Below, piece after piece: positions 1-17,045 of a stretch of DNA of 64,000 nt. The DNA is from Streptomyces sp. NBC_00690 (GTDB taxonomy: Bacteria; Actinomycetota; Actinomycetes; Streptomycetales; Streptomycetaceae). Below the pieces are notes generated by a model that made no database searches, was not told the origin of the DNA, and saw only the letters and a list, made by a program, of their open reading frames with translations. How positions within the stretch are numbered: the first letter of the stretch is position 1; each line of letters opens with the position of its first letter. The stretch is from positions 3,224,001-3,288,000 of the forward strand of contig NZ_CP109009.1 in assembly GCF_036226685.1 (NCBI RefSeq), given 5' to 3'. Both the position numbers and the translations under genes were made by a program.

Positions 1-331
1 TGCGTCCTCGCCCGGCCTCGGCCAGCAGGGCGTCCCACCCTGGGCGCTTGCGCTTGCGCTGCCACGCGGAGCGGTTGTTGTCCACGAAGACCTGGTCCTC
101 GACAACGGCGAGCCCGAGCCGTTCGGCCACCTCGCGGCAGATGCGCTCCTGGCGCTCGACGCCCGTCTGATCGTCGTCGTTGGCATGGGAGATCCGGCAG
201 TAGATGGCCGCGGTCTCTCCCGTCCAGTCGGATGGGCGTTGCTTGGTCCGCTGGGTTCCCGCCGCCTGCGTGGCCCGGAGCGCTCGCCGTAAGCGGGCTT
301 CTGACTGCTGGTCCTTCTCGTCCTCGGTCAC
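1..331 (-). CDS. Serine site-specific recombinase, N-terminal part (runs off left edge)
   Basis: The first 331 bases read leftward as the N-terminus of a large serine recombinase. After a charged leader of about 35 residues comes AIYCRISHANDDDQTGVERQ, which has the YxRxS motif of the resolvase catalytic domain (catalytic serine near residue 46). It continues with a VFVDNNRSAW stretch and GWDALL, typical of phage or ICE integrases. GTG at 331 is the first start codon after an in-frame stop; no good ribosome binding site is visible. The rest of the protein lies outside the window. The gene starts about 10 bases from the broken end of a DUF4291 gene and points away from it, the usual layout of a serine integrase beside its att site. 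Family call confident; whether it is active cannot be judged. Confidence 0.85.
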   Translation of the reverse strand, partial: MTEDEKDQQSEARLRRALRATQAAGTQRTKQRPSDWTGETAAIYCRISHANDDDQTGVERQERICREVAERLGLAVVEDQVFVDNNRSAWQRKRKRPGWDALLAEAGRGR

Positions 332-362
332 AAGTAAGAGACTACGAACGCGGCTTGATCCA
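332..362. other. Candidate recombination junction (attL or attR)
   Basis: DUF4291 homology stops in the codons for TWIKP (about 348-362), and the serine recombinase starts at 331. The integration crossover should therefore lie within or just beside these roughly 30 bases. The exact 2-bp core cannot be defined without the other junction or an empty site. Confidence 0.5.
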
Positions 363-512
363 AGTCATCCTGGTCCGCTTCCAGGCTGCCGGAAATCGGC
401 CGTCGCGCGCCGCTGGCAGGCCGAGTTCCGGGGCGTACGCCTGGTACACGGTGATGGTGGTGTCGGTGTGCAGCGCGCGGATCGCGCGCTGCGGGGGGTT
501 CGTCTCCTGCAT
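342..512 (-). pseudogene. DUF4291 protein, N-terminal fragment, truncated
   Basis: This 56-codon leftward frame starts at ATG 512 and ends at TAG 342. It contains IRALHTDTTITVYQAYAPEL and then RMTWIKP, the conserved N-terminus of DUF4291 proteins (roughly 180-200 residues, function unknown). Family members continue after WIKP with a conserved SFLWM-like segment; here the frame changes to Arg-Ser-stop immediately after WIKP. The serine recombinase gene begins 10 bases further on. I infer that an element integrated within this gene and displaced the remaining three quarters, which may lie at the element's other end outside the window. The fragment follows mmsA on the same strand, 76 bases beyond its stop, with a hairpin in between. 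Confidence 0.75.
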
Positions 513-588: not shown

Positions 589-2091
589 TCAGTGGTTGCG
601 CGGGAAACCGAGGTCCACGCCCGAGGGGGCGTCGGCCGGGTCGGGCCAGCGGGTGGTGACGACCTTGCCGCGGGTGTAGAAGTGCACGCCGTCGTTGCCG
701 TAGATGTGGTGGTCCCCGAAGAGGGAGTCCTTCCAGCCACCGAAGGAGTGGTAGCCGACGGGAACCGGAATCGGAACGTTCACGCCGACCATGCCGGCCT
801 GGACCTCCATCTGGAAGCGGCGGGCCGCACCGCCGTCGCGGGTGAAGATCGCGGTGCCGTTGCCGTACTGCGAGGCGTTGATGAGGGCCAGGCCCTCTTC
901 GTAGGTCTCCGCGCGCAGGACGCACAGCACCGGGCCGAAGATCTCGTCGCGGTAGGCGTCGGAGTCGGTGGAGACCTTGTCGAGGAGGGAGATGCCGATC
1001 CAGTGACCGTCCTCGAAGCCCTCGACCGTGTAACCGGTGCCGTCGAGGACGACCTCGGCTCCCTGGGCGGCGGCACCGGTGACGTAGGAGGCGACCTTGT
1101 CACGGTGCACCTTGGTGATCAGCGGACCCATCTCGGACGTGGGGTCGTTGCCCGGGCCGATCTTGATCTTCTCGGCGCGCTCGCGGATCTTCTCCACCAG
1201 TTCATCGGCGATGGAGTCGAGGGCGACGACCGCGGAGATGGCCATGCAGCGCTCGCCCGCCGAACCGTAGGCGGCCGAGACCGCGGCGTCGGCCGCAGCG
1301 TCCAGGTCGGCGTCCGGGAGGACCAGCATGTGGTTCTTCGCACCGCCGAGCGCCTGCACCCGCTTGCCGTTGGCGGAGGCGGTGGTGTGGATGTAGCGGG
1401 CGATCGGAGTGGAGCCGACGAAGGAGACCGCCGATACGTCCGGGTGGTGCAGGAGTGCGTCGACGGCCACCTTGTCGCCGTGGACCACATTGAGGACACC
1501 GTCGGGCAGCCCCGCTTCGGTGGCCAGTTCGGCGAGGAAGTTGGCCGCGGAGGGGTCCTTCTCGCTGGGCTTCAGGATGAAGGTGTTTCCGCAGGCGACC
1601 GCCAGCGGGAACATCCACATGGGGACCATCGCGGGGAAGTTGAACGGGGTGATGCCCGCGACGACACCGACGGCCTGGCGGATGGAGGACACGTCGACCC
1701 GGTTCGACACCTGGGTGGACAGCTCGCCCTTCAGCTGGGTGGTGATGCCACAGGCCAGCTCGACGACCTCCAAGCCACGGGCGACCTCGCCCAGCGCATC
1801 GGAGTGGACCTTGCCGTGCTCGGCGGTGATCAAGGCCGCGATGTCGTCACGGCGCGCGTCCAGCAGCGCCCGGTAGCGGAAGAGGATCGCCGTGCGCTGG
1901 GACAGGGACGACGTGCCCCAGGTGGCGAACGCTTCCTTGGCCGCGGCGACGGCGGCACCGACCTCGTCGGTCGAAGCCAGCGCGACCTGGGCGGCCACGG
2001 CGCCGGTCGCCGGGTCGGTGACCGGACCCCAGTTGCCCGACGTTCCCTCGACGGTCTTTCCACCGATCCAGTGGTGGATGTTCTTCGTCAT
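589..2091 (-). CDS. mmsA: Methylmalonate-semialdehyde dehydrogenase (acylating)
   Basis: A 500-residue CoA-acylating aldehyde dehydrogenase. It converts malonate semialdehyde (inositol pathway) or methylmalonate semialdehyde (valine pathway) with CoA and NAD+ to acetyl-CoA or propionyl-CoA plus CO2. Visible hallmarks: the GITPFNFP segment (residues 146-153) with the oxyanion asparagine, the cofactor-binding ILKPSEKDP segment, and the catalytic cysteine in GERCMA (Cys282). Length matches the family. It is the last gene of the leftward run iolC, aldolase, iolB, iolD, mmsA, separated from iolD by 42 bases, so it probably plays the IolA role. In Streptomyces the orthologue is also known as msdA. 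Confident. Confidence 0.93.
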   Translation of the reverse strand: MTKNIHHWIGGKTVEGTSGNWGPVTDPATGAVAAQVALASTDEVGAAVAAAKEAFATWGTSSLSQRTAILFRYRALLDARRDDIAALITAEHGKVHSDALGEVARGLEVVELACGITTQLKGELSTQVSNRVDVSSIRQAVGVVAGITPFNFPAMVPMWMFPLAVACGNTFILKPSEKDPSAANFLAELATEAGLPDGVLNVVHGDKVAVDALLHHPDVSAVSFVGSTPIARYIHTTASANGKRVQALGGAKNHMLVLPDADLDAAADAAVSAAYGSAGERCMAISAVVALDSIADELVEKIRERAEKIKIGPGNDPTSEMGPLITKVHRDKVASYVTGAAAQGAEVVLDGTGYTVEGFEDGHWIGISLLDKVSTDSDAYRDEIFGPVLCVLRAETYEEGLALINASQYGNGTAIFTRDGGAARRFQMEVQAGMVGVNVPIPVPVGYHSFGGWKDSLFGDHHIYGNDGVHFYTRGKVVTTRWPDPADAPSGVDLGFPRNH

Positions 2092-2133
2092 GAGAAAGGC
2101 TCCTTCACAAGTGCCGGCACGTCTGCGGATGTC

Positions 2134-4155
2134 TCACAGCTGGCGGCGTCGCTCGGCGGTGCGCCGCTCGTACTCCTCCCGGGCGTCGACCGCCGACTGC
2201 CGGGTCGCGATCTCTGCCACGGGAACATCCCACCACGCCTGTGCCGGGGGCGGGCTCGACACAGTGTCTGCGGTTTCGGTCTCGACATAGACACCTGTGG
2301 GAACGTCCGCCGCCCGGGCCTCGACGAGCGCGCGCCGCAGTTCATCCACGGTTGTGGCCCGGATCACGCGCAGTCCGAGCGAGGCTGCGTTGGCGGCCAG
2401 ATCGACGGGGAGCGGCGCTCCGGAGTACGTGCCGTCGGGGCCGCGGTGACGGTAGGCCGTGGCGAACCGTTCGGCGCCCACGGCTGCTGAGAGTCCACCG
2501 ATCGATGCGTATCCGTGGTTCTGAACGATGACCACCTTGATGGGGATGTTCTCCTGGACCGCGGTGACGATCTCCGTGGGGTTCATCAGATAGGTGCCGT
2601 CGCCGACGAGGGCCCAGACGGGCCGCCCGGGTGCGGCCAGCCGGACACCGATGGCCGCGGGGATCTCGTAGCCCATGCAGGAGTACCCGTACTCGACGTG
2701 GTACTGGTCGGCGGACCGGGCGCGCCACAGTTTGTGGAGGTCCCCGGGGAGCGAACCGGCGGCGTTGATGACGATGTCGTCCTGGTCGACGAGGGCGTCG
2801 AGCAGGCCGAGCAGCTGGGTCTGGGTGGGGCGGGCGTTGGGGTCGTCCGCGCGATAGGCGAGGTCCACCCGCTGCTCCCAGCGCTCCTTGCCCGCGCGGT
2901 ACTCCTCCTCGTACGCCGGCGAGACCCGCTTCGGTGCTGCTTCGGCGGGACCTGCGAGATCGGTGAGATCGGTGAGATCGGTCAGGGCCTCGCGGGCGTC
3001 CGCGACGAGGGAGAGGCCGGCCATCTTGTGGGCGTCGAAGGACGTGACGTTGATGTTGACGAATCGAACGGACGGGTTCTGGAACAGAGTGGAGGACGCG
3101 GTGGTGAAGTCGGACCACCGAGTGCCGACCCCGATCACGACATCCGCGGTACGGGCCGCCTCCGCAGCGACCGCGGTACCGGTGTGGCCGATGCCGCCGA
3201 TGTCGCAGGGGTGGTCGTAAGGGAGGGACCCCTTTCCGGCCTGGGTGGAGGCAACGGGAATGCCGGTGGCATCGGCGAACGCCCTCAGCGCTGCCTCGGC
3301 CTCGCTGTGGTGAACTCCGCCGCCGGCGACGAGGAGGGGGCGGCGGGCCGCGGACAGGAGCCGGCGGGCCTCGTCGAGCGCATCACGATCGGGGCGGGGC
3401 CGGTCCACCCGCCAGATCCGCTGGGTGAAGAACTCCTCCGGCCAGTCGTACGCCTCGGTCTGCACATCCTGAGGAAGGGCGAGGGTGACCGCACCGGTCT
3501 CCGCCGGGTCGGCGAGGGTGCGCATGGCCTGGAGCGCGGCCGGGATCAGGGCCTCGGGGCGGGTGATGCGGTCGAAGTAGCGCGAGACGGGTCGTAGGGC
3601 GTCGTTGACGGACAGATCTCCCGCATGGGGGGTTTCGAGCTGTTGCAGAACGGGGTCGGCCGGACGGGTGGCGAAGACGTCGCCGGGGAGCAGGAGTACG
3701 GGGAGGCGGTTGATGGTGGCGAGTGCCGCACCGGTGACCAGATTGGTGGCGCCGGGGCCGATGGACGTGGTGACCGCGTGGGCGGAGAGCCGACGGGACT
3801 GTCGCGCGTAGCCGACGGCGGCATGGACCATCGCCTGCTCATTGCGGCCTTGGAAGAACGGCATGGCAGGACGGCCGCCGCCGGTGCCTCCGCCGTGGCC
3901 GTGCGTTTCACCGGCCGCGCCGTGCGTTTCACCGGCCGCGCGGTGCGGGTGCGGTTCGGTGCTGGAATCGGGCGCTGTCGGGTAGGGGCCGGTGCCGGAT
4001 TCCAGCAGGGCTTGACCGATCCCTGCCACGTTCCCATGACCGAAGATGCCCCAGGTGGCGCTGATGAGCCGCTGTCGGCGTCCGTCCCGCTCGGTGTACT
4101 GGCGGCTGAGGAAGGTGATCAGGGCCTGGGCGACGGTGAGGCGACGGCAGGTCAT
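2134..4155 (-). CDS. iolD: 3D-(3,5/4)-trihydroxycyclohexane-1,2-dione acylhydrolase
   Basis: A 673-residue thiamine-diphosphate enzyme that opens the ring of trihydroxycyclohexane-dione to give 5-deoxy-glucuronate. ATG at 4155 overlaps the iolB stop (ATGA) and fits the family N-terminus (RLTVAQALITFL); the frame continues further upstream but only as antisense of iolB. Features: IFGHGNVAGIGQAL near residue 40, the cofactor-activating glutamate in QGRNEQAMVHAA (Glu106), GPGATNLVTGAA, and the C-terminal diphosphate/Mg2+ site around GDGTYLMNPTE. Between residues about 55 and 97 there is a His/Gly-rich insertion not expected in the family; Bacillus IolD goes straight from GIGQAL to the QGKNEQ segment. 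Part of the insertion comes from a 21-bp duplication. Function confident. Confidence 0.93.
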   Translation of the reverse strand: MTCRRLTVAQALITFLSRQYTERDGRRQRLISATWGIFGHGNVAGIGQALLESGTGPYPTAPDSSTEPHPHRAAGETHGAAGETHGHGGGTGGGRPAMPFFQGRNEQAMVHAAVGYARQSRRLSAHAVTTSIGPGATNLVTGAALATINRLPVLLLPGDVFATRPADPVLQQLETPHAGDLSVNDALRPVSRYFDRITRPEALIPAALQAMRTLADPAETGAVTLALPQDVQTEAYDWPEEFFTQRIWRVDRPRPDRDALDEARRLLSAARRPLLVAGGGVHHSEAEAALRAFADATGIPVASTQAGKGSLPYDHPCDIGGIGHTGTAVAAEAARTADVVIGVGTRWSDFTTASSTLFQNPSVRFVNINVTSFDAHKMAGLSLVADAREALTDLTDLTDLAGPAEAAPKRVSPAYEEEYRAGKERWEQRVDLAYRADDPNARPTQTQLLGLLDALVDQDDIVINAAGSLPGDLHKLWRARSADQYHVEYGYSCMGYEIPAAIGVRLAAPGRPVWALVGDGTYLMNPTEIVTAVQENIPIKVVIVQNHGYASIGGLSAAVGAERFATAYRHRGPDGTYSGAPLPVDLAANAASLGLRVIRATTVDELRRALVEARAADVPTGVYVETETADTVSSPPPAQAWWDVPVAEIATRQSAVDAREEYERRTAERRRQL
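3901..3942. repeat. 21-bp tandem duplication inside iolD
   Basis: Two adjacent 21-base copies (3901-3921 and 3922-3942) differ only at the last base and encode AAGETHG twice in IolD. Being a multiple of three, the duplication preserves the frame. Confidence 0.9.
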
Positions 4156-5084
4156 CCCTGCTCCTCGGCCGGTCGTGGGTGCCTCGGTGCGTCGGAGCGC
4201 GAGCCGGGTCGGAGCGGGAGTCGGGGATCCATCGGCTGGTCCGGCCAGGTGTCCCGGATCCAGCCGTGGTCGGGGTGGTCGCGGATGAGCCACTCCCGTG
4301 GGCCGGGCCCCGCCATCACATTGAGGTAGTACATGTCCCGCCCGGGAGCGGCGATGGACGGACCATGCCATCCGTCGGGCACGAGGACGGCATCACCGCC
4401 GCCGACTTCGACGAGCAACTCCGTACCCCCGGGGCGGGACGGCGAGACCTGGTGGAAGCCCGTACCACCCCGGTCGATCTCGAAGTAGTAGATCTCCTCC
4501 AACTCGGACTCCACCCCGGGCACGTGCTCGTCGTGCTTGTGCGGCGGATAGGACGACCAGTTGCCACCGGGGGTGATCACCTCCACAGCGATGAGGCGAT
4601 CGCAGTCGAAGACACCCGCGGCGGCGAAGTTGTTGACCTGGCGGGAGCAGCCACCTGAACCGCGGAGTTCGACCGGTACCTCCGGCGCGGGGCCGTAGCG
4701 AGCGGGGAGTCGTCGCTCGCACTTCGCTCCTGCCAGGGCGAAGCGGCCTCCCGCACCGGAGGCGATCTGTGCGTGGGAATCACGCGGCAGATAGGCGAAG
4801 TCCGTCGCTCCGCCAAATACACCTTCCCTTCCGCGCAGTTCGAAGAACTCTCCTTCTGCATGTACGGTGCAGCCGCCGCTCAGGGGCAGGACGATCCACT
4901 CGCAATCGCCCGTGTCCAGGGAGTGGGTGCCACCGGGGGGCAGTTCCAGAACCCTCAGGGCGGCATGGGCCCATCCCGCGCGGGCGGGATCGATGCGCAG
5001 GGCATAGGGCCCGCTGCGCGCGCTGCCCGCCGGGAGGTGAGACCTCGACTCGGGCGGCACGGTGTGCGTGTGATCGGCGCTCAT
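4152..5084 (-). CDS. iolB: 5-deoxy-glucuronate isomerase
   Basis: A 310-residue cupin-fold protein that isomerises 5-deoxy-D-glucuronate to 2-deoxy-5-keto-D-gluconate. It has the two-cupin layout and the family segments SYPPHKHDEH (metal-binding histidines) and EEIYYFEIDR, followed by the second-domain DGWHGPSIAAPGRDMYYLN region. Length matches IolB proteins. ATG at 5084 gives SADHTHTVPPESRSHLPAGS and lies 16 bases after the aldolase stop. The stop overlaps the iolD start by four bases, indicating translational coupling. Confident. Confidence 0.93.
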   Translation of the reverse strand: MSADHTHTVPPESRSHLPAGSARSGPYALRIDPARAGWAHAALRVLELPPGGTHSLDTGDCEWIVLPLSGGCTVHAEGEFFELRGREGVFGGATDFAYLPRDSHAQIASGAGGRFALAGAKCERRLPARYGPAPEVPVELRGSGGCSRQVNNFAAAGVFDCDRLIAVEVITPGGNWSSYPPHKHDEHVPGVESELEEIYYFEIDRGGTGFHQVSPSRPGGTELLVEVGGGDAVLVPDGWHGPSIAAPGRDMYYLNVMAGPGPREWLIRDHPDHGWIRDTWPDQPMDPRLPLRPGSRSDAPRHPRPAEEQG

Positions 5085-5100
5085 GTTCTCTCCGTACCCC

Positions 5101-5985
5101 CTACAACAGTCCTACGGCGGTATCGACGGCAGCGGCCACGTCTCCGTCCGCCGGGTAGAGCAGTGAACGTCCCACGACGAGGCCCTGGACGGTGGGCAGT
5201 CGCAGGGCCCTGTGCCACTTCGCGTAGACGCCGTCCTGGTCGGTGCCGATGTCACCGCCGAGGATGACCGCGGGCAGGGTGGAGGTCTCCATGACGCTCG
5301 CCATCGCCTCGGGGTCGTCCGGCACCGGAACCTTGAGCCAGGTGTACGCGGAGGTCCCGGCGAGACCGGAGGCGATGGCGATGGACCGGGTGATCGCTCC
5401 GGCGCTGAGGTCGGTGTGGAGACGTCCGTCGGTCCGGTGGCAGATGAAGGGCTCGACGAAGACGGGCAGTCGGTGTGCCGCCATCTCGTCGACGACGCGG
5501 GCGGCCGAGTGGAGGGTGTCGAGGGACGCCGGGTCCTGGTAGTCGATGCGCAGCAGCAGTTTGCCCGCGTCGAAGCCGAGGCGGGCAAGGTCCTGTGGGC
5601 GATGTCCGGTGAAGCGGTCGTCCAGTTCGAAAACGGCGCCGGCGAGTCCGCCGCGGTTCATGGACCCCATGACGACCTTGTCGTGCAGCGCCCCGAGCAG
5701 AAGCAGGTCGTCAAGGATGTCCGCGGTGGCGAGGACGCCGTCCACACCGGGGCGTGAGAGGGCGAGACAGAGCCGTTCCAGCAGGTCGAAGCGGTTGGCC
5801 ATGGCCAGCGGGCTGGCTCCGACGGCGAGCGCTCCACGGGCCGGATGATCGGCCGCGATGATCATCAGCCGTCCGCTCGGACCGATGAGACGGGTCCGTC
5901 TGCGTCGGCTCGCGGCAGCCTCGGCCACGGCCTCGGGGTGCCTGGTCCGGATTCCGGTCAGTTCGTTTATGGCGACACGGCTCAT
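5101..5985 (-). CDS. Cgl0159-type (beta/alpha)8 aldolase of the inositol operon
   Basis: A 294-residue TIM-barrel protein related to class I aldolases and to the Corynebacterium Cgl0159 protein found in inositol gene clusters. ATG at 5985 overlaps the iolC stop (ATGA). Motifs: MIIAADHPARGALAVG (the ADHPxRG signature near residues 45-55), GSMNRGGLAG, LLRIDYQDP, FVEPFICHR and AVILGGDIGTDQDGVYAKWH. The operon has no recognisable IolJ, so the inferred job is cleavage of 2-deoxy-5-keto-gluconate 6-phosphate to dihydroxyacetone phosphate and malonate semialdehyde. This role is inferred from position and fold; many annotations call it simply a deoxyribose-phosphate aldolase-like protein. Confidence 0.8.
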   Translation of the reverse strand: MSRVAINELTGIRTRHPEAVAEAAASRRRRTRLIGPSGRLMIIAADHPARGALAVGASPLAMANRFDLLERLCLALSRPGVDGVLATADILDDLLLLGALHDKVVMGSMNRGGLAGAVFELDDRFTGHRPQDLARLGFDAGKLLLRIDYQDPASLDTLHSAARVVDEMAAHRLPVFVEPFICHRTDGRLHTDLSAGAITRSIAIASGLAGTSAYTWLKVPVPDDPEAMASVMETSTLPAVILGGDIGTDQDGVYAKWHRALRLPTVQGLVVGRSLLYPADGDVAAAVDTAVGLL

Positions 5986-7169
5986 GGGTGCCCTCCGGGG
6001 CCATCGGCTCGGCGCGGCTCGACCGGGGGTGCCTCGGAGGATCGCAGCTCCGGGGCGGGCGGGACTCGGGATGCCGGGGGTGGGGCCGTCGGCCCTTCGG
6101 GGGACGGTCGCGGGGAGGGCTGCGGGGGCGACGGCTGTTCGGATGGGCGCAGGGGAACGGGTGGGAGCAGGGGGACGGCCGGGGGCGGGGTAGGCGAAGG
6201 CGGGACGGGCCCACCGGACATCACCTGGTCTACTTCCGTCGCGAACGGCATGGCGGTGGAGCAGGCGAGCCTCGCGGCGACGATGGCGCCGGCGGCGTTG
6301 CCATAGCGCATCACGCGCTCCAGGTCCCAGCCGGCGAGCAACCCATGACAGAGGGCCCCACCGAACGCGTCTCCCGCACCCAGCCCGTTGACCACGTCCA
6401 CGGGCACGGGAGGGACCTCGACGCGAGTGCCGTCCTGGTGCAGTGCGAGGACTCCCGCGGGGCCCTGTTTGACGACGGCGAGGTCCGCTCCCGCGGCGAG
6501 CAGCGCCCGGGCGGCTGCCTCCGGTTCGCGCTCGCCGGTGGCGATCTCGCACTCGTCGAGATTGCCGACGGCAACGGTGGCCCAGGCGAGTGCTCGGCGG
6601 TAGTGGGCGCGGGCCGCCGTGGGGTCTGCCCAGAACATGGGCCGCCAGTCGAGGTCGAACACGGTGATCCCGGCACGGTCGCGATGGGCGAGCGCCGCGA
6701 GCGTGGTGGCCCTGCTGGGCTCCTCGCAGAGTCCCGTACCGGTCGTCCAGAAGACCCGCGCCGCTCGGATCGCCTCAAGGTCGAGGTCCTGGAGTGCGAT
6801 TTCCAGGTCGGGTGCCTTGGGCTGTCGGTAGAACCAGAGGGGGAAGTCGTCCGGGGGGAAGATCTCGCAGAAGGTGACGGGGGTGGGGAGTCCCGGTACG
6901 GGGGTCACCCATCGGTCGTCGACCCCGAAATCGGCGAGTGCCTCGTGGAGGTACTCACCGAAGGCATCGGCGCCGGTACGGGTGATCACCGCGGTGTGCC
7001 GCCCGAGCCGTGCGGCAGCGACGGCGACGTTCGTCGCCGAGCCACCGAGGAACTTGCCGAACACATCGACCCGCGCCAGCGGCACACCGGTGCGCAGGGG
7101 ATAGAGATCCACCCCGATGCGTCCCATGGTGATGACGTCGAAGGACTCCGGTTGGTGCGGCTGCGACAT
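5982..7169 (-). CDS. iolC: 5-dehydro-2-deoxygluconokinase
   Basis: A PfkB-family sugar kinase that phosphorylates 2-deoxy-5-keto-D-gluconate. ATG at 7169 (MSQPHQPESFDVI) is preceded by an AAGGGA ribosome binding site; longer frames upstream enter the promoter. Motifs: GGSATNVAVAAARLG (residues 42-56), FDLDWRPMFW, and the catalytic NGLGAGDAFGGAL (residues 261-273, Asp267 as base). The family normally ends near residue 320. Here a tail of about 75 residues, very rich in proline (PPSPTPPPAVPLLPPVPLRP and similar), follows MPFATEVDQV. The tail could be disordered or an artefact of a shifted stop codon. It is the first gene of the operon, about 30 bases downstream of a predicted promoter. Confidence 0.9.
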   Translation of the reverse strand: MSQPHQPESFDVITMGRIGVDLYPLRTGVPLARVDVFGKFLGGSATNVAVAAARLGRHTAVITRTGADAFGEYLHEALADFGVDDRWVTPVPGLPTPVTFCEIFPPDDFPLWFYRQPKAPDLEIALQDLDLEAIRAARVFWTTGTGLCEEPSRATTLAALAHRDRAGITVFDLDWRPMFWADPTAARAHYRRALAWATVAVGNLDECEIATGEREPEAAARALLAAGADLAVVKQGPAGVLALHQDGTRVEVPPVPVDVVNGLGAGDAFGGALCHGLLAGWDLERVMRYGNAAGAIVAARLACSTAMPFATEVDQVMSGGPVPPSPTPPPAVPLLPPVPLRPSEQPSPPQPSPRPSPEGPTAPPPASRVPPAPELRSSEAPPVEPRRADGPGGHP

Positions 7170-7204
7170 GCGGGTCCCTTCGCCTCGCTGCCCGGGTCTC
7201 CCCA

Positions 7205-7234
7205 GGTCTAGTGCCGTCCATCGAATACTGTCAA
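7205..7234 (-). promoter_or_regulatory. Predicted iolC operon promoter
   Basis: On the minus strand a TTGACA (-35, at 7234-7229) is followed after 18 bases by TAGACC (-10, at 7210-7205), about 36 bases before the iolC ATG. The -35 overlaps the left arm of the central dyad, so a regulator bound there would block it. Confidence 0.55.
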
Positions 7235-7262
7235 CATTTTGTCCGGACATTCGGACGTTGAC
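7230..7262. promoter_or_regulatory. Nested palindromic operator between iolC and the inosose dehydratase gene
   Basis: Outer arms GTCAAC (7230-7235) and GTTGAC (7257-7262) flank inner arms GTCCG (7241-7245) and CGGAC (7252-7256). A perfect 10-bp palindrome, TGTCCGGACA, lies at 7240-7249. The site covers the -35 elements of both divergent promoters, a natural target for an inositol-responsive repressor. No candidate regulator gene lies next to it. Confidence 0.6.
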
Positions 7263-7291
7263 TTGACACTCTTTCGGGGCGGCCGTAAGGC
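7263..7291 (+). promoter_or_regulatory. Predicted promoter giving a leaderless inosose dehydratase mRNA
   Basis: TTGACA (7263-7268), a 17-base spacer and TAAGGC (7286-7291) lie directly upstream of the ATG at 7300. Transcription would start within a base or two of the start codon, and no Shine-Dalgarno sequence is present, so the mRNA is probably leaderless. Confidence 0.5.
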
Positions 7292-7299
7292 TCGGCCGT

Positions 7300-8211
7300 A
7301 TGAGCTCCCCCGTCCCCGCACTGAACCGCATCCGGGTCGGCTCGGCCCCCGACTCCTGGGGGGTGTGGTTCCCCGACGACCCCCTCCAGGTGCCGTGGCA
7401 ACGATTCCTCGACGAGGTCGCCCAGGCCGGCTACGAGTGGATCGAACTCGGCCCGTACGGCTATCTCCCCACTGATCCCGGCCTCTTGCAGGAAGAAACC
7501 GTGCGGCGGGGGCTCAAGGTGTCGGCGGGGACGGTCTTCACCGCCCTCCACCGTGGCACCGCCGTCTGGGACGCGACCTGGGCGCACGTCTCCGACATCG
7601 CCGCCCTCACCCAGGCCATGGGGGCCGAGCATCTGGTGGTCATCCCCGCGTTCTGGAGGGACGACAAGACCGGGCGGGTCGTGGAGGACAGCACTCTGAC
7701 CTCCCGTCAATGGCGTGATCTGACCGTCCAGACCGAACGTCTCGGCCGTGAGGTGCGCGAGCGCTACGGGCTGGAGATCGTGGTGCATCCCCATGCGGAC
7801 ACTCATATCGACGGTGAGGAGAACGTCAGCCGCTTCCTCGACGCCACCGATCCGGATCTGGTCTCGCTCTGCCTGGACACGGGCCACTACGCCTACTGCG
7901 GCGGGGACAGCGTCGCCCTGATCGAGACGTACGGCGAACGGCTCGGCTATCTCCACCTCAAGCAGGTGGACCCTCGGATCCTCGCGGAGGTGAACGCCGA
8001 TCAGTTGCCCTTCGGCCCGGCCGTCGCACGGGGAGTGATGTGCGAGCCACCGGCAGGCATCCCTGCCCTGGAACCCGTACTGGCCGCAGCCGACGCGCTG
8101 GGCGTGGAACTCTTCGCGATCGTCGAGCAGGACATGTACCCCTGCCCTCCTGACAAACCATTTCCCATTGCCCAACGAACCCGTCGCTTCCTGCGCACTT
8201 GCGGCGCCTGA
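7300..8211 (+). CDS. Inosose dehydratase-like TIM-barrel isomerase (IolE family)
   Basis: A 303-residue AP-endonuclease-2/xylose-isomerase-like barrel. The N-terminal VGSAPDSWGVWFPDD matches the signature of IolE-type inosose dehydratases. Further metal-site regions are IVVHPHADTHIDGEE, SLCLDTGHYAYCGGD and YLHLKQVDP. IolE removes water from scyllo-inosose, the step just before IolD. The gene is divergent from the rest of the pathway and shares its dyad-containing promoter region. The alternative is another sugar-phosphate isomerase of the same superfamily, such as an IolH- or IolI-type enzyme. No inositol 2-dehydrogenase (iolG) lies beside it, so that step must be encoded elsewhere. Superfamily certain, IolE activity likely. 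Confidence 0.8.
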   Translation: MSSPVPALNRIRVGSAPDSWGVWFPDDPLQVPWQRFLDEVAQAGYEWIELGPYGYLPTDPGLLQEETVRRGLKVSAGTVFTALHRGTAVWDATWAHVSDIAALTQAMGAEHLVVIPAFWRDDKTGRVVEDSTLTSRQWRDLTVQTERLGREVRERYGLEIVVHPHADTHIDGEENVSRFLDATDPDLVSLCLDTGHYAYCGGDSVALIETYGERLGYLHLKQVDPRILAEVNADQLPFGPAVARGVMCEPPAGIPALEPVLAAADALGVELFAIVEQDMYPCPPDKPFPIAQRTRRFLRTCGA

Positions 8212-8907: not shown

Positions 8908-11331
8908 TCAGACCTTGGCCCGATCGGGCGGGGCGGAGCCGGCCCCCTGGTCTGCGTCGGTGTTCTGGATCGCTCCTCGCCCAGCGGCGCCCGCACCAGC
9001 CGCGTGTTCATCTTCGAGAGCGACCGAGGCCGCCGTGTCGCCTTCGCTGAGACCGAACCGCTGGTGGAACCGTCGCAGTGGCGCGGGCGCCCACCAACTC
9101 CACGCGCCCATCAGCTTCATCACCGACGGCACCAGCAGACTGCGCACCACCATGGCGTCCATCAGCACCGCAAGGGCGATACCGAGACCGAGCATCTTCG
9201 TGTTGGTGACCCGCGAGGTGCCAATGGCGAGCATCACCACCGCGAGGATCACGGCCGCTGCGGTGATCAGTCCACCCGTGCGTTGCAGTCCGAAGCGCAC
9301 CGCGTGTTCATGGTTGCCCGAGTGGTCGTACTCCTCCTTGATGCGGGAGAGCAGAAAGACGCCGTAGTCCATCGAGAGACCGAAGGCGATGCAGAACATC
9401 AGCACCGGCAGATTGGTTTCGATGTCTCCGGTCGGAGTGAAGCCCAGCAGCCCGGAGAGATTCCCGTCCTGGAAGATCCAGACGACCGCACCGAACATGG
9501 CGGTGAGACTCAGCGCATTGAGCACGACCGCCTGAAGGGGAATCAGCACACTGCCGGTCAGAAGGAAGACCAGAACCAAGGTGGCCACGGCAATGATCCC
9601 CAGCGCCCACAGCAACCTGTCCGCGATCGCCGCCTTGGAGTCCTCCAGAACAGCGGCCCTGCCCGTCACCGAGGTCTCGAACGGCGCGGGCACCTCCCGC
9701 AGGTCATGGACCAACTGCTGAGCGCTTTCGCCCACCGCCTCGCCCTTGGGCTGAATGGTGAAGTAGGCCGCACTACCGGACACGGCCGGCCCGTCCACCC
9801 GCAGCACTCCCGGGAGGGCGGCTATTCGGTCGCGGTACTCCGCGTAGGTGGCGGATGTGACACCCGCGCTCGCCTCCTCGTCACCGTCTCCCCCATCGGT
9901 GAGCGGCCCCGCGAAGATCTCGATGGCCCCGTCGGGACTACCGGTGAATCGCTCGCGGATCTCCTCCTGCACCACACGGGACTCAGCACTCACGGGGAGT
10001 TGCCGATCATCCGGCGTACCGAACTTCACATCAAGGAAGGGGAGCCCCAGAAGGAGCAGTGCCGCAATGGTCGTGAAGGCGAACAGCGGTGCCCTTCGCA
10101 TCACCAGATCCGCAAGTCGGGTCCACCCTCCCCGCTCTCCGGGCTGCTCCGCGCTGCGTGGCCCGACAGACCCCGAGGGCTGCTCCCCCTGATGCTCGAC
10201 GCGCTCGACGCCGCCGAGGTCTCGGCAGGCTGGGCGGACTCGGCGGCGACGGAAGGCCGCTCGCAGGTCCAGGGCGTTGATCCGATGCCCCAGGAGCATC
10301 AGCGCAGCGGGCAGCAGGACCAGAGCCGCACCGGCAGCCAGGAGGACCACCGCCACTCCCGCATAGGCGAACGAGCGGAGGAAGTACTGCGGAAACACCA
10401 GCATGGCCGCCAGGGACACCGCCACCGTCAGTGCCGAGAAGAGAACGGTTCTCCCGGCCGTGCGCAGGGTCGCCCCCACGGCATCACGGACCTCAAGGCC
10501 ACCGGCCAGTTCCTCCCGGAACCGACGCACGATGAACAACGCGTAGTCAATGGCCAGCCCCAACCCCAAGGCGGTGGTGAGGTTCATGGCGAAGACCGAG
10601 ACGTCCGTGAACTCCGTGAGCCCCCTCAGCAGCGCATTGGTGCCCAGGATCGCGACGATCCCGACCAGCAGGGGCAGCGCTGCCGCGACCGCGCTTCCGA
10701 AGACCATGACCAGAAGGATCAGGGTCACCGGTAGGGCGATGGCCTCGGCCAGCAGCAGATCTTCCTGGATGATCGTGGTCATCTCATGCTCCACGGCAAC
10801 AGGCCCTCCGAGGGAGACCTCCACTGGGCCGTGCGCTCCGCGATACTCCGGAGCTATCCGCTGGAGCACCTCGGCCTTGGTCTTCTCATCGCCCAGTACC
10901 CGAGCCGCGACGAGGGCTTGCCGTCCGTCCTCTGAGCGCAGAGCCGGCGAAGGGCTCTGCCAGTAGGACCCGACGCCCGTGATCCCCTTCTCCGCCGCCA
11001 GGCGCTCGGTCAACCGCCGCCCTTCGGCGGCGACCGCCGGGCTGTCCACCCCCGCCCGCCCGCTGTCGACCAGCAGCAGCAGATTGGGCTGGGACGCCGG
11101 AAACTCGCGCTCCAGCGCCTTGGTCGCGTACGACGACTCGGCAGCCGGATCGGTCCACCCGCCGCTTCCCATCCGGTCCGCCACTCCACTGCCCGCGAAG
11201 ACGGCGAGCACGGTGAGGACCAGGGCCGCGAACAGGGCGAGTCGTGGTCGCGCGGTGACGAATCGGGTCCACCCACCGACCGGCCGCCGTGCCCGGGGCG
11301 GGGCCGGGGGCGGGCTGTTGACTTCGGACAT
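8908..11331 (-). CDS. MMPL/RND-family membrane transporter
   Basis: An 807-residue MMPL transporter with the usual duplicated design. A first membrane helix near residues 30-50 is followed by an extracytoplasmic domain and five clustered helices. A cytoplasmic loop follows (charged, with many Gln and Arg residues), then a second copy: one helix, an outer domain with FTIQPKGEAVGESAQQLVHD, and five helices. Conserved membrane motifs include GLAIDYALFIVRRFREEL and GLSMDYGVFLLSRIKEEYD, which carry the Asp-Tyr pairs of proton-coupled transport. Likely substrates are lipids or hydrophobic drugs. It is divergent from a TetR regulator across a large dyad, which suggests substrate-inducible export. 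Confidence 0.9.
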   Translation of the reverse strand: MSEVNSPPPAPPRARRPVGGWTRFVTARPRLALFAALVLTVLAVFAGSGVADRMGSGGWTDPAAESSYATKALEREFPASQPNLLLLVDSGRAGVDSPAVAAEGRRLTERLAAEKGITGVGSYWQSPSPALRSEDGRQALVAARVLGDEKTKAEVLQRIAPEYRGAHGPVEVSLGGPVAVEHEMTTIIQEDLLLAEAIALPVTLILLVMVFGSAVAAALPLLVGIVAILGTNALLRGLTEFTDVSVFAMNLTTALGLGLAIDYALFIVRRFREELAGGLEVRDAVGATLRTAGRTVLFSALTVAVSLAAMLVFPQYFLRSFAYAGVAVVLLAAGAALVLLPAALMLLGHRINALDLRAAFRRRRVRPACRDLGGVERVEHQGEQPSGSVGPRSAEQPGERGGWTRLADLVMRRAPLFAFTTIAALLLLGLPFLDVKFGTPDDRQLPVSAESRVVQEEIRERFTGSPDGAIEIFAGPLTDGGDGDEEASAGVTSATYAEYRDRIAALPGVLRVDGPAVSGSAAYFTIQPKGEAVGESAQQLVHDLREVPAPFETSVTGRAAVLEDSKAAIADRLLWALGIIAVATLVLVFLLTGSVLIPLQAVVLNALSLTAMFGAVVWIFQDGNLSGLLGFTPTGDIETNLPVLMFCIAFGLSMDYGVFLLSRIKEEYDHSGNHEHAVRFGLQRTGGLITAAAVILAVVMLAIGTSRVTNTKMLGLGIALAVLMDAMVVRSLLVPSVMKLMGAWSWWAPAPLRRFHQRFGLSEGDTAASVALEDEHAAGAGAAGRGAIQNTDADQGAGSAPPDRAKV

Positions 11332-11406
11332 GGTGCGGTGTCCCCTTCACCGGGGCCCATGTGCAGGCATGCGAGCAGGCAGCATGAGGCGACCATTGCC
11401 ATAGAC

Positions 11407-11469
11407 TTGGCAAACACGAGCAATCGCTCGCATTGACAAAGAATGCGAGCGACCACTCGCGTTTGTCAA
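11407..11469. promoter_or_regulatory. Large nested dyad, probable TetR operator
   Basis: A perfect 10-bp inverted repeat, CGCTCGCATT (11425-11434) and AATGCGAGCG (11442-11451), has a 7-base spacer. It is enclosed by outer arms at 11407-11420 and 11456-11469 that match at 12 of 14 positions. The dyad lies between the divergent exporter and TetR genes, so one repressor could control both. Confidence 0.75.
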
Positions 11470-11494
11470 CCGCGCCAGGAAGCTGGGGATATCA

Positions 11495-12214
11495 GTGCCG
11501 GACACGACAAAGCCGGAGGCAGTAACTCCAGAAATCGCGCCCGCCCAGGAGTCCGCGTCCACGACCGCCAAGCCGCGCCGACGCCAGGCGCGCGGGGAGC
11601 GGCGGATCGCCCAACTCCTCGATGCCGCGGCGACCGTCTTCACGACGTCCGGATACACCGCAGCCACGACCAACGCCATCGCGCGTGAGGCTGGCGTCTC
11701 CCCCGGCACGCTCTACCAGTTCTTCCCCAACAAGGAAGCGATCGCCATCGAACTGGGCGGTCGCCTCCTGGAGCGCTGGCGCGAGTCGCACGGCACGGCA
11801 CTCGTCGCAGCGGGCCAGCCACTCCCCCTCGACACACTCCTGGACGAAGTCCTCGATCCGCTCTTCGCCTTCAACTACGACAATCCGGCTTTCGCGGTCC
11901 TGATCCACGGCCATGACGCGCCCGGCCAGATTGCCCAGGAGTTCAACGCCATCCATCTGAGCCTGCTGGCCCGGATCGAAGAGGTGTTCGCCGTCTATCT
12001 GCCCGACCTCTCGCCGGCAGAGCTGTCCCGCATCGCCAACACCGCGCTCACCATCTTCAAGGCGGGCCTCGATCTCGTCCTCACCCATGAGGGCGACGAG
12101 CGACAGGCGTACACCCTGGAGATCAAGACGGTCCTGTACCGCTATCTGGACCCACTGTTCCCCGAGGGCGAGGACTGCGCACTGACCCGCGGCGCCACCG
12201 AGGGGACGTCCTGA
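11495..12214 (+). CDS. TetR-family transcriptional regulator
   Basis: A 239-residue repressor-type protein. A disordered charged leader of about 35 residues precedes the DNA-binding domain: RRIAQLLDAAATVFTTSGYT, then TTNAIAREAGVSPGTLYQFF (the helix-turn-helix, about residues 57-76), followed by PNKEAIA. The C-terminal half is helical and should bind a ligand. It is transcribed away from the MMPL exporter, and the intervening region contains a strong dyad. The simplest model is that it represses both itself and the exporter. The ATG/GTG choice at the N-terminus is uncertain because the leader is not conserved-looking. Confidence 0.9.
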   Translation: MPDTTKPEAVTPEIAPAQESASTTAKPRRRQARGERRIAQLLDAAATVFTTSGYTAATTNAIAREAGVSPGTLYQFFPNKEAIAIELGGRLLERWRESHGTALVAAGQPLPLDTLLDEVLDPLFAFNYDNPAFAVLIHGHDAPGQIAQEFNAIHLSLLARIEEVFAVYLPDLSPAELSRIANTALTIFKAGLDLVLTHEGDERQAYTLEIKTVLYRYLDPLFPEGEDCALTRGATEGTS

Positions 12215-14112: not shown

Positions 14113-14210
14113 GCTCATGTGAGGCACAAGACCTTCACAAAGAGACCTAGATCACAGATATTGAGGGGTAACCATTGAGGCTCCGCATGAGTCTAAATGG
14201 GCGATGCCAG

Positions 14211-14254
14211 GAACGTCTTGGGGGACGTTCGTGGGATGTCTTGGGGGACATTCC
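14211..14254. repeat. Twin hairpins with identical TTGGGG loops
   Basis: GAACGTC-TTGGGG-GACGTTC (14211-14230) is followed by GGGATGTC-TTGGGG-GACATTCC (14233-14254). The loops are identical. The stems differ by a paired change (C:G to T:A) plus a G:T pair, so base pairing is kept. They may be part of a structured RNA or a protein-binding repeat. Confidence 0.6.
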
Positions 14255-14354
14255 AGGCAAGCGTTGGCCGGGGCACGTGCCCGGGGAGCTTTGAGCGGCC
14301 CTCCCGTGCGTACGTACCCCGGCAGACCGCGTGTGGAGCTTCTGCTGCGGCAGG

Positions 14355-14443
14355 GACACCCGATCGGATCCCGTGGGGGGAATCCGTCTCGGAGGTCCCC
14401 CAAGCAGCAGAGACACCCGGCCGGATCCCGTGGGGGGAATCCG
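14355..14443. repeat. 32-bp direct repeats with 57-bp period
   Basis: Copies at 14355-14386 and 14412-14443 match at 30 of 32 bases around GGATCCCGTGGGGGGAATCC. A partial third copy (CCCGTGGGGGGATC) lies near 14477. The 57-bp period is a multiple of three and yields a repeated SPHGIR peptide on the minus strand, but no convincing gene surrounds it. Confidence 0.75.
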
Positions 14444-14459
14444 CTCCGGGGATATGGGA

Positions 14460-14504
14460 AGCGCCCCGCTCGTCGACCCGTGGGGGGATCGGCAGCGGGG
14501 CGCT
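14460..14504. terminator. Terminator-like hairpin
   Basis: An 11-bp stem, AGCGCCCCGCT (14460-14470) with AGCGGGGCGCT (14494-14504), has a 23-nt loop and is followed rightward by TTCGTCTTCT. No intact gene lies directly upstream on the plus strand, so which transcript it ends is unclear. Confidence 0.5.
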
Positions 14505-15555
14505 TTCGTCTTCTACGGGGTCGCCCGGGCATGGAACGCCCAGGAGCCCAACTGGGGGCCACAAGAGCCCCACAGGGCCGCTCAGGGCCTGGAAGGGCCC
14601 ATCCGGGCTCAGTCTTGCGGTCGCAAGCGCGTCGAGCACGGCCTGATGCCCCTTGGTGGCCGGCCCGTCGCAGCGCCAGCGCCACCCACCACTTGCGGCA
14701 CGTCGGCGCGCCTCCACTCGATCGACCGAGCTGCCGGGCAGGCCCACCCACACACTCCGGCACGCGCCGCGACCCACCGACACACGCCGACACCTTCGGT
14801 ACGCACGGGCTGAATCCAGCACTTCGACACCGGTGCCCCAAGGCTCCCGAGCCTGGCCATCGCGGTCCGTACGAAGGGGGTTGGACGTTCGCCGGAGCAG
14901 GGCGCACGGGCTGCCGGACCAGCCAGAATCAGCCGCCGGGACATCGTGATGCGACAACACACAGTGATCGTTACCGGGTCCCAACTCGCAAGGCCCTCCG
15001 GGACGGCCGAGGCGGCACAGCCCTCGTTCCCGGCGCGCCACCACCCCCCGGGTGGTGGACATGGCCCCAGCGGGCGGGTGCAACGGCCCTTACGGGTGTT
15101 CCCGGCGCCGTCCGCCGTCCCGGACAAACAAGGCCGTCCGCCGTCCCGGACAAACAAAAGCGTGGCACCGCCCTGGGGAATGCGTCGGGAAGCGTCTGCC
15201 TGCCCGACCAATCAGGCGCAGTCCGTGCGGTCCACACGAGGTGCTCGCCCAAGGGCGGTAACACCGCCGCCAGAAGCCACCGAGGGGGCCCATCGAGGAG
15301 GCAAGGGGCACGAGGGCGTCAAGGGCTGCGAGGGGGCACAGGAGGCGTCCGCACGAGGAAGACAGTGCGGGCCAGGGGCCGGTTCGACCTCGGCTCACCA
15401 GACGGCCGGCCGCAGCACACGGTGGCACGCAGTGCCTAACGCCCACTTCGCCTCGCCTGCGCGGGGGAACGTGCTGTGCACAATCCGCCGAGCCCGCCGA
15501 ACAGATCGCTCTACCCGCGGTAGCTGCCCCAGATGTCGAAGTACGCCGAAAACAC
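14505..15555. other. Gene-poor stretch, nothing recognised apart from a short tandem repeat
   Basis: Long frames exist on both strands, but none has a ribosome binding site, a recognisable family, or the codon-position bias seen in neighbouring genes. I treat it as non-coding or decayed. One 26-bp tandem repeat (15107-15157) is listed separately. Confidence 0.5.
15107..15157. repeat. 26-bp tandem repeat, two copies
   Basis: A 25-base unit beginning GCCGTCCGCCGTCCCGG and ending ACAAACAA occurs at 15107-15131 and 15133-15157 with one base between, copied exactly. It lies in an apparently non-coding stretch. Confidence 0.9.
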
Positions 15556-15590
15556 CGCTGCCGGAGTGCCCGTGGGGCACTCCGGCAGCG
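15556..15590 (-). terminator. Citrate synthase terminator
   Basis: A perfect 16-bp stem (15556-15571 with 15575-15590) with a GTG loop is followed in the leftward direction by TGTTTTC, a canonical intrinsic terminator. It lies about 165 bases beyond the citrate synthase stop. A second perfect 13-bp hairpin (15601-15613 with 15631-15643) precedes it. Confidence 0.8.
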
Positions 15591-15600
15591 GGATGCTGGA

Positions 15601-15643
15601 CCGTACGGCTGCCGGGACGCCCGTCCACAGGGCAGCCGTACGG
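15601..15643 (-). terminator. Second hairpin downstream of citrate synthase
   Basis: CCGTACGGCTGCC (15601-15613) pairs with GGCAGCCGTACGG (15631-15643) around a 17-nt loop. It lacks a T-tract of its own and probably acts in tandem with the hairpin at 15556. Confidence 0.55.
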
Positions 15644-15755
15644 AACTGGGGACCGCAGAGCCTCAGCCGGCGGCGACCCCGGTGGTCGAGCCCCGAAGGA
15701 CTCGGGTGAGCTCGACGCCAATCCAGGGCGTCGGCGGCCCTAGGTCGGATCGGGC

Positions 15756-17045
15756 TCAGCGGGCCTCGACGGGCACGAAGTCGCGCTCGACGACACCCGT
15801 GTAGATCTGCCGCGGACGGCCGATCCTCGAACCCGGCTCCTTGATCATCTCGTGCCACTGCGCGATCCATCCGGGCAGCCGCCCGATCGCGAACAGCACG
15901 GTGAACATCTCGGTTGGGAAGCCCATGGCCCGGTAGATCAGACCGGTGTAGAAGTCGACGTTCGGGTAGAGCTTGCGCTCCACGAAGTAGCTGTCGGAGA
16001 GCGCGTGCTCTTCGAGCTTGAGCGCGATGTCGAGCAGCTCGTCGGACTTGCCGAGCGCGGAGAGGACATCGTGGGCGGCTGCCTTGATGATCTGGGCACG
16101 CGGGTCGAAGTTCTTGTAGACCCGGTGGCCGAAGCCCATCAGACGGACGCCGTCCTCCTTGTTCTTCACCTTGTTGATGAAGGAGTCGACGTTGCCGCCG
16201 GACGTCTTGATGCCCTCCAACATCTCTAGCACTGACTGGTTGGCGCCGCCGTGCAGCGGGCCCCAGAGCGCCGAGATGCCGGCGGAGATCGAGGCGAACA
16301 TGTTCGCCTGGGAGGAGCCGACCAGGCGGACCGTGGACGTCGAACAGTTCTGCTCGTGGTCCGCGTGCAGGATCAGCAGCTTGTCGAGGGCCGCGACCAC
16401 GACGGGGTCGAGGTCGTACTCCTGCGCGGGGACCGAGAAGGTCATCCGCAGGAAGTTCTCGACGTACCCGAGGTCGTTGCGCGGGTAGACGAAGGGGTGG
16501 CCGATCGACTTCTTGTACGCGTACGCCGCGATCGTGGGCAGCTTGGCGAGCAGCCGGATCGTGGAGAGGTGGCGCTGCTTCTCGTCGAACGGATTGTGGC
16601 TGTCCTGGTAGAACGTCGACAGCGCGCTGACCACCGAGGAGAGCATGGCCATGGGGTGGGCGTCACGCGGGAAGCCGTCGAAGAACCGCTTGACGTCTTC
16701 GTGCAGCAGAGTGTGCTGGGTGATCTCGCCACGGAACTCGGCCAGCTCGTCGACGGTGGGAAGCTCACCGTTGATCAGCAGGTACGCCACTTCGAGGAAG
16801 CTGGAGCGCTCCGCCAGCTGCTCGATGGGGTATCCGCGATAGCGGAGGATTCCCTCTTCGCCGTCGAGGTAGGTGATCGAGGATTTATAGGCGGCCGTGT
16901 TGCCATAGCCGCTGTCCAGGGTCACCAGACCGGTTTGGGCTCGGAGCTTCCCGATGTCGAAGCCCTTGTCACCGACGGTGCTCTCAGCCACCGGGTAGGT
17001 GTACTCGCCGTCGCCGTACCGCAGTACTACAGAGTTGTCGCTCAC
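15756..17045 (-). CDS. gltA: Citrate synthase
   Basis: A 429-residue type II (E. coli-like) citrate synthase that condenses acetyl-CoA and oxaloacetate to start the TCA cycle. The start is GTG 17045 (VSDNSVVLRYGDGEYTYPV), preceded by GAGGGA seven bases upstream; this agrees with the conserved N-terminus of the Streptomyces enzyme, while the longer frame is a spurious Arg-rich extension. Catalytic features: HADHEQNCSTSTVR (active-site His), WGPLHGGANQSVLEML (second His) and GFGHRVYKNFDPRA (arginine and histidine of the substrate site), plus the C-terminal REIGRP-like segment RIGRPRQIYTG. It is a single gene with its own terminator. Confident. Confidence 0.95.
   Translation of the reverse strand: MSDNSVVLRYGDGEYTYPVAESTVGDKGFDIGKLRAQTGLVTLDSGYGNTAAYKSSITYLDGEEGILRYRGYPIEQLAERSSFLEVAYLLINGELPTVDELAEFRGEITQHTLLHEDVKRFFDGFPRDAHPMAMLSSVVSALSTFYQDSHNPFDEKQRHLSTIRLLAKLPTIAAYAYKKSIGHPFVYPRNDLGYVENFLRMTFSVPAQEYDLDPVVVAALDKLLILHADHEQNCSTSTVRLVGSSQANMFASISAGISALWGPLHGGANQSVLEMLEGIKTSGGNVDSFINKVKNKEDGVRLMGFGHRVYKNFDPRAQIIKAAAHDVLSALGKSDELLDIALKLEEHALSDSYFVERKLYPNVDFYTGLIYRAMGFPTEMFTVLFAIGRLPGWIAQWHEMIKEPGSRIGRPRQIYTGVVERDFVPVEAR

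Follow-up and report, generated by a model that had tools for sequence, protein, structure and literature searches.

In Streptomyces sp. NBC_00690, a 9,842-bp element of the pSAM2/SCO3937 type, an actinomycete integrative and conjugative element (AICE), has very probably been integrated by a serine integrase into an attB site within a chromosomal DUF4291 gene of unknown function, with cutting at a central TG. The window, by which we mean the whole 64,000-bp stretch of DNA analysed (C1:3224001-3288000 of a 9.17-Mb genome in two contigs), would start inside the right end of this element. We propose that the integrase paired attP with an attB in the DUF4291 codons ...RMTWIKPSFLWMMY..., a target of the form ATGACN-TG-GATCAAGCC, and that both sites were cut at the central TG and their halves joined, which would have split the gene at the W of TWIKP (codon 51), with attR now next to int and attL at a distance of 9.8 kb; a 46-aa ORF between rep and int may act as the directionality factor. 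Sequence comparison, set out below, documents the ends of the element, its gene content, the presence of uninserted sites in relatives, the recurrence of one integrase clade at the site and a near-identity between two elements that ends at the core; we infer in addition that the integrase is active and that the element continues to excise and transfer. An earlier reading of the window (the first-pass annotation) had described a serine integrase inserted in a DUF4291 gene; the comparisons support that reading in its essentials, and the type of element and the core are added here.

The split DUF4291 gene and its attachment sites

On the - strand of the window, a frame opening with an ATG at 512 encodes an N-terminal piece of DUF4291 (363..512, - strand; host B half of attR, assigned by PF14124 and sequence) that reads ...RMTWIKP, crosses the core and terminates in element DNA after a further RS and a stop (...ATG ACT TGG ATC AAG CCG CGT TCG TAG), with the TAG at 342-344. 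Window positions 351-482 match PF14124 positions 2-46 at 53.1 bits (cut-off 27). Exactly 10 bases separate the end of this frame from the GTG at 331 of the integrase, whose first 110 codons, of 505, occupy 1..331 (- strand) and whose ORF stays open in the adjoining sequence to genome position 3222814. The first-pass annotation was thus correct in placing a break directly after TWIKP, where RS and the TAG ending at 342 follow, and a serine recombinase 10 bases on: PF00239 (73 bits), PF07508 (70.2 bits) and PF13408 (29.1 bits) all exceed their cut-offs, as for a large serine recombinase. Ser48, in the motif AIYCRIS, is invariant in all six aligned integrases and is presumably the catalytic serine known from the family.

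The rest of DUF4291, which the annotation had suggested seeking leftward, was found 9.8 kb to the left on the same strand (genome 3214107-3214529; PF14124 positions 40-180, 195 bits), and these two halves, covering complementary ranges of the profile, are the only PF14124 matches in the genome. The second junction, expected within about 150 kb if this were the edge of an integrated element, lies 9.84 kb away with AICE genes in between, which supports such an edge. Two further ideas were rejected: that the element restores the gene, because the C-terminal half at attL has its first start codon, a TTG in frame, only within the P arm, and that attachment is at a tRNA gene, since neither the window nor the adjoining 20 kb on its left contains a tRNA.

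A 12-bp direct repeat, TGGATCAAGCCG, occupies window positions 351..362 (- strand), and its second copy lies at genome C1:3214509-3214520; the distance between the two copies gives the insert its length of 9,842 bp (about genome C1:3214520-3224362). In terms of the half-site model with a central dinucleotide, as given in passages of PMC3783163, attR covers ~50 bp (337..386, - strand) and consists of a B half (363-386), the proposed crossover dinucleotide TG (361..362, - strand) and a P' half (337-360). Rejoining the P and P' halves of the eight elements with both junctions available gave the attP consensus AAGGaCTAtGAACaCGgCTTGACa-TG-GATCAAGCcGcGtTCATAGtCTcT, and the attB consensus from eight elements is GCcTGGAAGCGGGACCGGATGACG-TG-GATCAAGCCgTCgTTCCTcTGGAT (lower case, fewer than 6/8 in each). 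Across the eight elements the inverted arms around TG match at 12-19 of 22 positions in attP and at 7-12 in attB, and TG is the top-scoring centre of attP symmetry in seven, the exception being G305, where a different centre scores 13 versus 12 of 22 at TG. The attP of the window element scores 16/22 at TG, a value reached by none of 100,000 base shuffles in a test that covered one element and one centre and preserved composition only.

That the core dinucleotide, which the annotation had asked to have defined, is most likely TG follows from two observations, namely that the inverted repeat of attP centres on TG and that attL and attR differ around it. In the window element, the bases to the left of TG differ between the two junctions. 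The element of S. roseoverticillatus (G240/L112) shows differences to the left and right of TG alike, attR reading ATGACG-TG-AGTC versus TTGACT-TG-GATC in attL; its near relative S. hiroshimensis has TGGATC in both junctions and lacks the difference, which may therefore be a later mutation. A crossover elsewhere within the shared TGGATCAAGCCG block seems unlikely. The block is 12 bp long in the window element and several of its dinucleotides match, and because attP and attB are alike just to the right of TG, the block alone cannot place the crossover in most elements; against such a crossover are the centre of attP symmetry at TG and, unless they arose after integration, the differences flanking TG in S. 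roseoverticillatus. TG is thus likely to be the point of exchange.

Gene content of the element

Adjoining the window on the left, the stretch L002 (genome 3204001-3224000) holds most of the insert. Nearest attL is a Nudix gene (L002 10565-11035, - strand), followed by a gene for a helix-turn-helix-like protein below the Pfam cut-off (11039-11782, - strand), small ORFs with no family assigned (about 11.9-13.7 kb), a GntR/UTRA gene (14201-14977, - strand), a SCO3933-family regulator (15106-15498, + strand; 118.8 bits, cut-off 80), an FtsK-type Tra (15495-16787, + strand; PF01580, 94.5 bits), a small protein that appears membrane-like by eye (16784-16978, + strand), RepSA (ending at 18629, + strand; PF20199, 463.6 bits), the 46-aa ORF between repSA and int (18626-18763, genome C1:3222626-3222763, + strand) and the integrase (18814 to genome 3224331, - strand), which adjoins attR. 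With an integrase, RepSA and an FtsK-type Tra predicted between two att sites, the insert is a pSAM2-type AICE.

RepSA scores 415.2 bits against the stricter NCBIfam equivalog model, below its cut-off of 700, and its open frame reaches ~140 codons upstream of L002 17376 without an ATG, GTG or TTG. A frameshift at the start of RepSA was considered and rejected: five of the seven relatives shown (in part) likewise have no Met in the upstream frame, CT34 and A. cocklensis being the exceptions, which favours an unusual start over a break. PADLOC gave a single match, between the Nudix protein and PDC-S07 (44.3 bits, E 3e-12); this candidate family has no description, and the match is not taken to indicate defence. 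A PDB sequence search gave no match.

Most integrating Streptomyces vectors use phage integrases, according to passages of PMC7460540, and the insert could by analogy be a prophage or phage remnant carrying a serine integrase; this is highly improbable. The 9.8 kb encode RepSA, an FtsK-type transfer protein, GntR and Nudix, and no phage structural gene is present among the element ORFs read or scanned, which include several small ORFs without a family. The integrase matched 537 phage records, all at <60% identity and the best-ranked at 30.2%, and a scan of viral contigs returned 63 pattern matches and no relative.

Use of the site in other genomes

The first-pass annotation had proposed a comparison with strains carrying an intact gene at this locus, and the site is uninserted in two relatives. 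These, G019 (L140) and G006 (L139), share the order iolD - mmsA - DUF4291 - peptidase/ABC gene, with no insert in DUF4291 and with the same neighbours that flank the split gene in the window genome, including the mmsA/iolA-like aldehyde dehydrogenase of the host flank (window 589..2091, - strand; PF00171). In both, a DUF4291 family member runs straight through the site, whereas the annotation would have been contradicted by relatives' genes ending there; the frame in G006 is interrupted upstream of the site (PF14124 positions 2-33 and 35-180). These are two of the six stretches fetched; in L136, L137, L138 and L141 DUF4291 is intact and the mmsA-peptidase neighbourhood was not found. The occupied state of the same locus is seen in Streptomyces sp. 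ISL-100 (L121), as iolD - mmsA - DUF4291 N-terminal piece - integrase. Window positions 589-8211, beside the att locus, hold an inositol-catabolism-like cluster (aldehyde dehydrogenase, IolD-like TPP enzyme, KduI/IolB and PfkB kinase).

Across the genus, PF14124 matches 315 of 392 genomes and finds nothing in 77, and a DUF4291 attB-like site with at most one mismatch is present in 246 of 343 genomes, a count that includes occupied attL junctions. The DUF4291 profile set comprised 30 genomes hand-chosen for weak or split matches or for carriage of the integrase, and its proportions should therefore not be taken as frequencies.

A match to the integrase at E <= 1e-60 occurs in 31 of 392 genus genomes, and 30 loci were fetched, the window's own included, with two matches without a locus left out. 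Seven of the 30 have the N-terminal DUF4291 piece beside int: five full-length integrases (100, 85, 82, 82 and 82% identity), one truncated (G085) and one broken (G325); no DUF4291 piece was found beside int in the other 23, whose integrases do not exceed about 66% identity. Scanning 84,980 species genomes yielded 12 loci, of which two at 27% identity were left out of the follow-up; the other ten are close relatives of the integrase, and nine of these have the DUF4291 piece beside int. The tenth, in Streptomyces sp. CB01373 (L115), adjoins a degenerate DUF4291-like half-site of ~35 bp (about 9960-10000) beside an unrelated gene, while a whole DUF4291 gene without an insert lies ~6 kb upstream (3614-4171); the half-site could be the decay of another copy or a pseudo-site. 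Relatives at the integrase come from Streptomyces and Actinacidiphila. After merging of duplicates (G240=L112, G315=L114, G305=L120, G085=L121), integrases of this clade adjoin the DUF4291 position in 13 genomes, two of them Actinacidiphila and one with the degenerate half-site only.

In a 29-row tree, the ten full-length, non-identical DUF4291-site integrases form one clade with 100/100 support; the tree leaves out short integrases (L059, L060, L061, L062, L121) and identical rows (L038, L039, L040, L113), and L063-L065 are not included. Sibling integrases adjoin pieces of other genes, which in four examples identified by Pfam are a luciferase-like monooxygenase, YqeY, an ABC-2 transporter and an aminotransferase, and one sibling group adjoins what appears by eye to be the end of an SMR transporter; the genes beside these more distant relatives are putative attB genes. 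The DUF4291 position looks like a real insertion address, given that relatives of the integrase occupy it in other species as well.

Evidence for movement comes from Streptomyces sp. SM1 and NBRC 110035, whose integrase proteins are the same over the aligned stretch. From TG towards int, 1,549 of 1,551 bases are identical (50/50, 100/100 and 1,399/1,401 in successive stretches), and the elements agree at 99.3% over the 6.3 kb available, while on the host side to the left of TG only 101 of 150 bases are identical. The break is placed at the core rather than to the base because the six bases before TG are equal in both hosts. On this comparison, one element has entered two different DUF4291 genes. 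That DUF4291 was instead broken by a rearrangement or an insertion sequence, with the integrase adjacent by chance, draws on how often the gene is absent or broken (the 77 genomes above) and on G307, where a split DUF4291 without P-like arms resembles a different insertion, but is refuted to the point of being negligible by recurrence of the same codon, orientation and spacing beside the integrase in 12 genomes of two genera, with the degenerate half-site in a thirteenth, and by the near-identity of the SM1 and NBRC 110035 elements ending at the core.

Further split sites were seen. In G117, G139, G254 and a second locus of G305, DUF4291 is split and has P-like arms with no homologue of this integrase; G307 was left out of the att count. 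At L100, L102, L103 and L104 the gene is split at the same codon by inserts of 0.9-3.4 kb with no homologue of the integrase, and three of these four carry an int-side arm, TCATCAAGCCGCGTTCACAG, that is 3 bases longer than in intact elements, with G254 similar; the longer arm is perhaps a second attP subtype. In L096 (G279), a P-like arm precedes each of two C-terminal halves of DUF4291 (178-600 and 4602-5033), which are separated by ~4 kb and suggest that one site took up insertions in tandem. The 11.6-kb plasmid record pNL15-2K-Cir (L143, NZ_CP130632.1), described as a Streptomyces sp. NL15-2K plasmid and filed as Kutzneria buriramensis, linear, encodes a sibling integrase (53% identical) and repeats the gene order of the element; it may be a circular AICE form captured in the assembly.

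The 46-aa ORF and comparison with known systems

The TTG start of the 46-aa ORF overlaps the rep stop, and the ORF ends before the 3' end of int. By tblastn it is present in 13 of 16 element sequences (three genomes counted twice), the two Actinacidiphila having its first half only; the misses are L121, where int is truncated, and L105 and L106 (G024), which have no such int. It also lies beside the broken integrase of G325, was not seen at G085, and is kept in the S. roseoverticillatus and S. hiroshimensis elements, where the rep and tra probes find nothing. At E <= 1e-4 it occurs in 9 of 392 genomes, and all nine carry the integrase family on the same contig, while RepSA is found in 342 of 392; the ORF therefore follows the integrase and not rep. 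In the remaining 22 of the 31 genomes with the integrase, no match attains this threshold, and weaker matches lie near many sibling integrases. An AlphaFold model has two helices (mean pLDDT 76.8, pTM 0.48). It is possible, if short of probable, that the 46-aa protein is a directionality factor (RDF) and that the clade constitutes a compact, self-contained, reversible int/RDF pair that targets DUF4291 at the level of a codon, other conserved genes having become the targets of its sister clades. Regulation of int is an alternative role, with directionality our best guess. If true, and judging by the literature passages compared, no AICE serine integrase would have had an RDF assigned before.

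The element is of an ordinary kind, and the DUF4291 attachment site appears to be undescribed, recurrent and probably dispensable. The first-pass suggestion of a new attB fits the literature to this extent: none of the PMC main texts searched contains 'DUF4291', alone or with 'integrase', supplementary tables of predicted sites aside, and the passages of PMC12884075 and PMC9513070 at hand do not mention it, the latter reporting 14 insertions in protein-coding genes. Durrant 2022 (PMC10083194) predicts sites for thousands of serine recombinases, and the DUF4291 site may be in its tables. With no intact copy in this strain and no match in 77 of 392 genomes, DUF4291 looks dispensable, so that its site could provide another orthogonal integration address. 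The family, with clades beside different genes, offers a natural series for how serine integrases change target.

pSAM2 of S. ambofaciens also combines RepSA, an FtsK-type Tra, GntR, Nudix and a small ORF between rep and int, which in pSAM2 is xis. It differs in using a tRNA-gene site (PMC3218068) and a tyrosine integrase, whereas the window element has a serine integrase convergent to rep and a protein-coding target. The pSAM2 protein Pif is a Nudix-domain protein (PMC3218068). The SCO3937 AICE of S. coelicolor, from passages of PMC8584621, is alike in having a KorSA-like GntR (SCO3932), the Pra-like SCO3933, TraSA-like and RepSA-like proteins and a serine rather than a tyrosine integrase; it is called a remnant there, whereas the window element, likened to it by gene set, has an integrase, Rep and Tra.

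AICEs with serine integrases are a known kind, as Ghinet et al. 2011 counted serine recombinases in 19 of 144 (PMC3218068), and the passages of that paper compared, Table S1 aside, mention no DUF4291 site among them. Its Faln2929 of Frankia is likewise an AICE with a serine recombinase convergent with tra and rep in a protein-coding gene, there a putative endonuclease gene rather than DUF4291; excision was detected and no RDF is identified in those passages. The Streptomyces phage serine integrases phiC31, phiBT1, TG1, R4, SV1, phiJoe and Samy belong to the same superfamily and share directional attP x attB recombination and an attP of ~50 bp with inverted arms, and they differ in their attB genes, which are SCO4848 for phiBT1 (PMC7460540) and a radical-SAM gene for Samy (PMC12924846). 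Beside them, the DUF4291 system would offer a defined attB/attP pair of ~50 bp each with a TG core and an integrase only distantly related to those of the phage vectors.
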